This document shows positions 7,871 to 29,444 of a stretch of 32,427 nucleotides of DNA, one piece after another. Position numbers and translations under genes: made by a program. The notes below the pieces were generated by a model, which saw only the letters and a list, made by a program, of their open reading frames with translations, ran no database searches and was not told the origin of the DNA. Source of the DNA: Candidatus Aciduliprofundum sp. (lineage in GTDB: Archaea; Thermoplasmatota; Thermoplasmata; Thermoplasmatales; Aciduliprofundaceae); NCBI GenBank assembly GCA_015520565.1, contig WAPW01000091.1, positions 1 to 32,427 on the forward strand. The letters are read 5' to 3'. Position 1 is the stretch's first letter. Each line of letters opens with the position of its first letter.

Positions 7871-7943
7871 GCAGGCGTAGTGTAGTCTGGCAGCACAAGG
7901 GCCTTCCAAGCCCTTAGCCCGGGTTCAAATCCCGGCGCCTGCA
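7871..7943 (+). tRNA. tRNA-Gly(TCC)
   Basis: GCAGGCG/CGCCTGC acceptor, anticodon arm AGGGC-CTTCCAA-GCCCT, T arm CCGGG-TTCAAAT-CCCGG, discriminator A. Confidence 0.95.
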
Positions 7944-7945
7944 TT

Positions 7946-7966
7946 AAGCCCTTTAAAAAAGGGCTT
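7946..7966 (+). terminator. Hairpin in tRNA-Gly trailer
   Basis: AAGCCCTTT aaa AAAGGGCTT, 9-bp stem immediately 3' of the tRNA; could be a processing or termination signal. Confidence 0.4.
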
Positions 7967-7980
7967 TATCCCAAAAGAAA

Positions 7981-8097
7981 TAAGCCCTTTTCTTAGGAAG
8001 AAAGGCACCACAGCCCTGCAAAGCGGTGCGTCTCGCATCTTCCACCACTCGTTTACCCCCAAATTTTACTTAAAAGGGAAGAGTGTGGAGAGAGAAA
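7981..8097 (+). repeat. tRNA-trailer element, copy A (candidate ncRNA)
   Basis: 117 nt aligning to the minus-strand copy at 29194-29311; last ~50 nt (CTCGTTTACCCCCAAATTTTACTTAAAAGGGAAGAGTGTGGAGAGAGAAA) identical. Confidence 0.85.
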
Positions 8098-8144
8098 CCG
8101 TAGGTGTCTCTTTCTAAGGAACCCGCTGGTGGTTCCTAAGCATT

Positions 8145-24852: not shown

Positions 24853-26331
<1,479 letters not shown>

Positions 26332-29193: not shown

Positions 29194-29311
29194 TTTCTCT
29201 CTCCACACTCTTCCCTTTTAAGTAAAATTTGGGGGTAAACGAGCATCGGAAGATGTGAGCACGCCCTGCTTTGCAGGGCTGTGGCACCTTTCTTCTTAAG
29301 AAAGGGGCTTA
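29194..29311 (-). repeat. tRNA-trailer element, copy B (candidate ncRNA)
   Basis: 118 nt homologous to 7981-8097, starting 1 nt after the tRNA-Glu discriminator base. Confidence 0.85.

Positions 29312-29444
<133 letters not shown>

Follow-up and report, generated by a model that had tools for sequence, protein, structure and literature searches.

Short hairpin repeats shared by tRNA introns and tRNA 3' flanks at chromosome breakpoints in the family of Candidatus Aciduliprofundum

Copies A and B, two similar spans of about 118 nt in a contig of Candidatus Aciduliprofundum sp., are probably two 3'-flank stands of short hairpin repeats that have two main habitats, tRNA introns and the DNA directly after tRNAs, and that are exchanged by DNA recombination. 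The 118-nt span is a mosaic of short hairpin units and is neither a single gene nor a two-copy duplication. The repeats are confined to one family of heat-loving archaea, and their positions coincide with evolutionary chromosome breakpoints. Altogether, the evidence supports an exchange at the DNA level among short repeats of tRNA loci. The DNA analysed here (the window, 32,427 nt) is contig C91 of assembly G000, which comprises 1.51 Mb in 103 contigs.

Copy A (7981-8097, +) and copy B (29194-29311, -) showed 90% identity end to end in a whole-genome search (E 1.9e-39). This agrees with an earlier note on the window, which had described a near end-to-end match of A with the reverse complement of B, and the sequence blocks that it quoted as common to both are present as stated. 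The note had also placed both copies directly downstream of a tRNA in the same relative orientation. The orientation is right for both, but direct adjacency does not hold for copy A, which is separated from tRNA-Gly(TCC) by 37 nt containing another short unit (Table 1). The proposed element of ~118 nt turned out to be an arbitrary cut through three to four repeat modules, which run beyond 8097 to 8140. When copy A was searched against the 1.51-Mb genome, as the note had suggested, 13 matches were obtained, every one at tRNA genes, a result far from chance. Some of them are complete, and others comprise the first 24-40 nt, the middle or the last 30 nt only. A simple duplication with no more copies, the outcome that the note had set against its own proposal, is ruled out by these 13 matches and the further ones in relatives.

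The first part of the element recurs a third time, within the intron of tRNA-Glu(TTC). This gene was missed by a plain tRNA scan and by Rfam at the gathering threshold; ARAGORN run with introns finds it and gives it a wrong name. Rfam 15 over the window matched tRNA and 16S rRNA only, and no family model matched the element. The archaeal 16S rRNA gene lies at 24854-26331 (-), with no other rRNA match in the window at the Rfam gathering threshold, and mutS is located just upstream of it on the same strand.

Table 1. Features of the window that compose or adjoin copies A and B; positions are those of the window.
Feature	Positions	Strand	Basis	Remark
tRNA-Gly(TCC)	7871-7943	+	tRNA scan, Rfam	
Type I unit, short perfect-hairpin form, in the gap between tRNA-Gly and copy A	7946-7977	+	covariance model R1, 39.2 bits, E 2.8e-7	
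Copy A, type I hairpin (first half of type I unit)	7982-8004	+	pattern search	
Copy A, module b (double hairpin), which splits the type I unit	8005-8050	+	whole-genome search	
Copy A, TTTACCC tail of type I unit	8051-8063	+		
Type III unit in the opposite orientation to the tRNA, forming the last half of copy A and continuing past it	8074-8114	-	shared k-mers	counterpart of the tRNA-Pro(CGG) intron core in relatives
Hairpin of a type II unit, in the opposite orientation to the tRNA	8116-8140	-	pattern search	also found as the intron core of tRNA-Pro(TGG) and of the G000 tRNA-Gln
Copy B, type III unit, opposite in orientation to the tRNA	29194-29217	+	shared k-mers	
Copy B, TTTACCC tail of type I unit	29228-29240	-		
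Copy B, module b (double hairpin)	29241-29287	-		
Copy B, type I hairpin	29288-29310	-	pattern search	
tRNA-Glu(TTC) with intron	29312-29444	-	ARAGORN (mis-named)	
Type I unit within the tRNA-Glu intron	29363-29402	-	model R1, 63.9 bits, E 1.4e-13	third copy of the first part of the element

The tRNA 3' flanks of three genomes of the genus (G000; G003, a single contig of 1,486,778 bases; and G002, also a single contig) are a mosaic of short modules whose order is variable. The sequence read consisted of tRNA neighbourhoods and of the DNA around hits. Type I is AAGCCCCTTTCTTAGAAAGAAAGCGGCTTTACCCGGAAAG and type II is AGGAACCACCAGCGAGTTCCTTTACCTCCTGCAACC, type III has the forms GGGGCACC..GGTTCCCCTTTCTAAACCC and GAGACACC..GGTTTCTC, and the fourth module, called b, is a double hairpin. 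The basic type I unit consists of a hairpin of ~29 nt followed by TTTACCC..AAAG. In both copies A and B, a type I unit that is split by module b just before its TTTACCC tail precedes an inverted type III unit, and an inverted type II unit comes after copy A.

Comparison by hand of the placement of types I and II relative to tRNAs revealed that these units are bound to tRNAs in the three genomes. At up to 3 mismatches, all the places of type I (25/25) and of type II (20/20) fall within tRNA introns or the 3' flanks of tRNAs, and reversed control patterns gave 0 matches in G000, G003 and G002. The type I core is present in the introns of tRNA-Asp, Glu, Ile, Thr, Arg, Met, Asn and Gln, that is, near-identical introns are found in tRNAs of different identity, and the introns of tRNA-Pro(TGG) and tRNA-Pro(CGG) are type II and type III, respectively. 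Several intron-bearing tRNAs were mis-named by ARAGORN, and their anticodons are given according to our own reading; in the ARAGORN placement, the intronic copies sit at the canonical position 3' of the anticodon. Furthermore, tRNA-Gln(TTG) and tRNA-Gln(CTG) have introns of type I in G003 but of type II in G000 (the TTG gene of G002 has type I), so the tRNA-Gln intron has been replaced at the same site. The introns of tRNA-Met, Asn and Thr(TGT) are present in G000 and G002, and not in G003. The minimum-energy fold of tRNA-Gln is BHB-like with either intron type and that of tRNA-Glu is not, the predicted fold of the tRNA-Glu precursor favouring the hairpin of the unit itself over the splicing motif. 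Copies A and B are by definition not tRNA introns, since both lie after complete tRNA genes and interrupt none.

Concerning the flanks, type I units are nearly always in sense orientation; 18 of the 25 flank cases have a unit that starts 2-3 nt past the tRNA. Type II units are sense in 5/5 introns and inverted in 15/15 flanks. More than half of the tRNAs in the same genome have no type I unit. No duplication of the tRNA end was seen after the hairpin units, where there was no clean empty site to compare, and no repeat of the tRNA end in the form of a 14-15-bp target duplication of the casposon type occurs behind A and B. Likewise, no transposase, terminal repeats or target duplication tied to the units were found.

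Other sequences were also observed behind tRNA genes. The tRNA-Ala genes carry 50-bp inserts downstream, between which the tRNA 3' end is repeated over 13-14 bp (CCCGCCCGGTCCA and variants). These inserts are located at G000:C8:11842-11907 (L107) and at G002:57910, 96709 and 506129 (L069, L070 and L075); they precede any hairpin unit and resemble serial integrations with target duplication. In addition, a fluoride riboswitch (Rfam RF01734, 45 bits) is found downstream of tRNA-Pro(CGG) in G003, near 738.4 kb (L064 946-1007, -).

The relation between flank and intron copies could be followed most clearly at tRNA-Arg(CCG). In G003, this gene has a type I intron and is followed downstream by a region called X. 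The intact tRNA-Arg(CCG) of G000, on contig C98, has a different intron and the same upstream region as in G003 (92% over 877 bp), and region X of G000 is located on contig C101 after tRNA-Pro(TGG), preceded by a type I unit and a tRNA-Arg 3' half. That unit is a hybrid, and because its first half is flank-like (CTTTCTTAGAAAGAAAG) and its second half is intron-like (ACCCGTAAAGAAGGG), the crossover was placed inside it. The hybrid unit joins tRNA-Pro to the tRNA-Arg 3' half and therefore indicates that flank and intron copies recombine, at a joint read from the fragmented assembly G000. Orphan tRNA halves were also seen elsewhere. At G000:C61:29008-29089 (L174), the sequence comprises another promoter and another 5' half of tRNA-Leu(TAG), truncated at the intron position, with a type I unit after it; the intact tRNA-Leu(TAG) gene of this genome is on C100. 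At G011:C169:20917-21002 (L160), a tRNA-Phe 3' half abuts an inverted type I unit, and its reading as a split tRNA was set aside given the intact tRNA-Phe in G011.

For the analysis of synteny, the upstream and downstream neighbours of each G003 tRNA were compared with those of the orthologous tRNA. Upstream neighbours were mostly kept. Between G003 and G000, the downstream neighbour was kept at 19 of 21 tRNAs without units and at 6 of 20 with units (Fisher p 9.3e-5, unit status curated), and the same test between G003 and the single-contig G002 gave p 0.0018; these p values are only indicative, since the status was partly curated by hand and the events are not independent. Copies A and B are both synteny joints: the region after tRNA-Gly(TCC) of the window follows tRNA-Arg(TCG) in G003, and the mutS region after tRNA-Glu of the window follows tRNA-Pro(GGG) there. 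Moreover, the downstream regions of tRNA-Leu(CAG) and tRNA-Pro(CGG), which are on opposite strands and ~505 kb apart in G003, are swapped reciprocally between G003 and G000, and this is what one inversion would produce. tRNA genes without reported units are also frequent breakpoints in archaea (PMC3218864), so the association between units and breakpoints need not be causal, and the units may be participants in rearrangement rather than its sole cause.

Two pairs of isoacceptors, Val-CAC/Val-TAC (G003:704952, 1359372) and Glu-CTC/Glu-TTC (G003:1143988, 1035940), seem to have swapped places with respect to G000 and G002, the upstream flank of one belonging to its partner. It was also observed that contigs C6, C21, C22, C41, C54 and C65 of G000 end within or just after unit-bearing tRNAs, which is expected if repeats break the assembly.

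The hairpin structure of the units is conserved. Among 42 distinct 40-nt sequences, the 13-bp type I hairpin has 5 pairs with changes on both sides (22 cells), and its percentage paired and covariation score were reached by 0 of 500 shuffles, which do not model relatedness. Covariation was computed on these 42 real type I sequences and not on the seed of model R1, which has 15 rows, one of them short by one loop base. In module b the two hairpins are kept and the stems are wholly different between genera (for instance GCCCTGC/GCAGGGC, GCCTCAC/GTGAGGC and GCCTCGC/GCGAGGC).

Regarding the phylogenetic range, the type I covariance model has matches in 13 of 18 genomes of the archaeal family of the window, covering all five genera, and in 0 of 90 other genomes of the order. 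In a scan of named genomes, the core appeared only in Aciduliprofundum, DHVE2 group or Thermoplasmata records, and viral contigs contained no exact match to it. Outside G000, G003 and G002, the family has 87 further copies, of which 34 occupy recognised tRNA introns, always in sense orientation, and 35 lie in 3' flanks; the remaining 18 are at a distance from recognised tRNAs, 4 of them at truncated or half tRNAs. The note had suggested checking whether every genomic copy follows a tRNA. Copies in the genus of the window are indeed at tRNAs, in the flank or in the intron, but 14 of the 87 further copies have no tRNA link and are mostly intergenic stands in other genera, for which reason the link appears looser there. 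The tRNA link is thus complete in the genus of the window, as far as it was searched, and not across the whole family. Intergenic stands without a recognised tRNA are L206, L212, L213 and L214 (G008, G016), L228-L230 (G013) and L154 and L177 (G009).

Different explanations can be weighed against these results. The sense type I hairpin could be a host signal for tRNA 3' processing or termination, kept by selection and gene conversion, with incidental rearrangements. The fixed offset of 2-3 nt from the tRNA, the sense orientation of nearly all flank copies and the compensatory changes in the hairpin are consistent with such a signal; nevertheless, it is unlikely, as the type I unit also fills tRNA introns and is missing from the majority of tRNAs in the same genome, types II and III are inverted and further downstream, and other genera have copies away from tRNAs. 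The note had proposed a novel sRNA family, co-transcribed with tRNAs and released from their precursors as a discrete RNA of 100-120 nt. Conserved hairpins with covariation and a location behind tRNA promoters would fit this, but there is no constant 118-nt unit and no Rfam match over the element; the modules occur singly, nested, inverted, in introns and, in other genera, away from tRNAs, which makes the sRNA a quite improbable explanation.

The other proposal of the note, a small mobile element targeting tRNA 3' flanks, captured part of the picture: the units are tRNA-bound in the genus, vary by species and are located at rearrangement joints. However, no transposase, terminal repeats or target duplication were found for them, and it was overlooked that the flank units are the cores of tRNA introns. 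It is very improbable that the units were left behind by site-specific integration, with a casposase or a tyrosine integrase acting at tRNA 3' ends, in the manner of the tRNA-Ala inserts. A casposase of A. boonei has its preferred site at the 3' end of a tRNA-Pro gene (PMC6614799), and a cas1 gene lies ~5 kb beyond tRNA-Pro(TGG) in G003, in line with the A. boonei casposon at tRNA-Pro; spacer-like 50-bp inserts separated by tRNA-end repeats also exist at the tRNA-Ala loci. Against this, the tRNA end is not duplicated after the hairpin units, and integration would leave the intron-position copies and the inverted types unexplained. REP-like elements mobilised through the action of a Y1 (IS200/RAYT) transposase on hairpins would account for a hairpin with a short conserved foot motif and for modular stands in both orientations, but the likelihood is minimal because the Y1 transposase (PF01797) was detected in 0 of 4 genus genomes, with 5 control genomes positive.

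The preferred explanation is thus the exchange of hairpin units between tRNA loci by DNA recombination. The first arm of an intronic unit could act as the inner helix of the splicing motif, and the unit would leave with the intron; a flank unit would begin in the trailer and be cut off by 3' processing. Introns and trailers are both removed during tRNA maturation, so a unit in either of them should not harm the tRNA. Near-identical units at different tRNA loci could recombine as DNA, by means of RadA or a tyrosine integrase, and this would invert chromosome segments, exchange flanks, swap introns and spread units. Genes for tyrosine recombinases (PF00589) number 4-6 per genome, and the unit content at the same tRNA differs between sister species. 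Module b would be an additional element, made of two hairpins and positioned immediately 5' of the TTTACCC-type tail.

A more tentative, though quite possible, proposal is that archaeal tRNA-intron gain has its missing reservoir and intermediate in the flank copies, a mobile hairpin unit having two safe places in a tRNA gene, the intron and the trailer. If this is true, recombination from this reservoir brings introns into new tRNAs, replaces old ones and shuffles the chromosome. A clade with the same sequences inside and outside introns, with intron replacement and with a flank-intron crossover makes the movement of archaeal tRNA introns testable, partly in the cultured Aciduliprofundum boonei, and in these units the rearrangements that recur at archaeal tRNA genes would have a concrete substrate in DNA. 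No paper describing these repeats, the tRNA introns of A. boonei or any intron-type units located elsewhere than in tRNA introns was found in the open-access literature searched.

Several known systems share features with these units. REP/RAYT palindromic repeats are short intergenic hairpins that form modular stands; unlike them, the units are tRNA-bound in the genus of the window and occur without Y1 transposase (PF01797, four genus genomes). With respect to MITEs, terminal inverted repeats and target-site duplication are the features of those elements, and the units are themselves hairpins. Module b, with its two successive hairpins, is similar in architecture to the mitochondrial double-hairpin elements mentioned in papers such as PMC7218506 and PMC4478555, which belong to a different domain of life. 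As in the tRNA gene disruption of Caldiarchaeum (PMC3293823), intron gain is found together with an orphan tRNA fragment, but the insertion in Caldiarchaeum is 1.8 kb long and bears a recombinase, whereas in the family of the window just 40-nt hairpin units adjoin the orphan halves.

In Thermococcus, inversions driven by a pTN3-type integrase are bounded by tRNA genes, and the integrase recombines segments as short as 104 bp (PMC5495485). Breakpoints at tRNA genes and reciprocal exchange or inversion between opposite-strand tRNA loci are common to both cases; however, the breakpoints in the genus of the window fall in intron-type repeats behind the tRNA or in the intron. In Thermoproteales, similar introns in different tRNA species were read as intron transposition (2010 work cited in PMC4033280 and PMC4090602), and the mechanism of archaeal tRNA intron movement is still unknown according to a review (PMC4090602). 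The near-identical introns in different tRNAs reported here are like those transposed introns. Compared with that work as these two papers present it, the units of the window differ in being also outside introns, in 3' flanks and in both orientations, in a different archaeal phylum, and in showing the replacement of one type of intron by another among sister species. Copies in the flanks are not themselves introns, and the behaviour of the units is like that of intron transposition together with repeat-mediated inversion.
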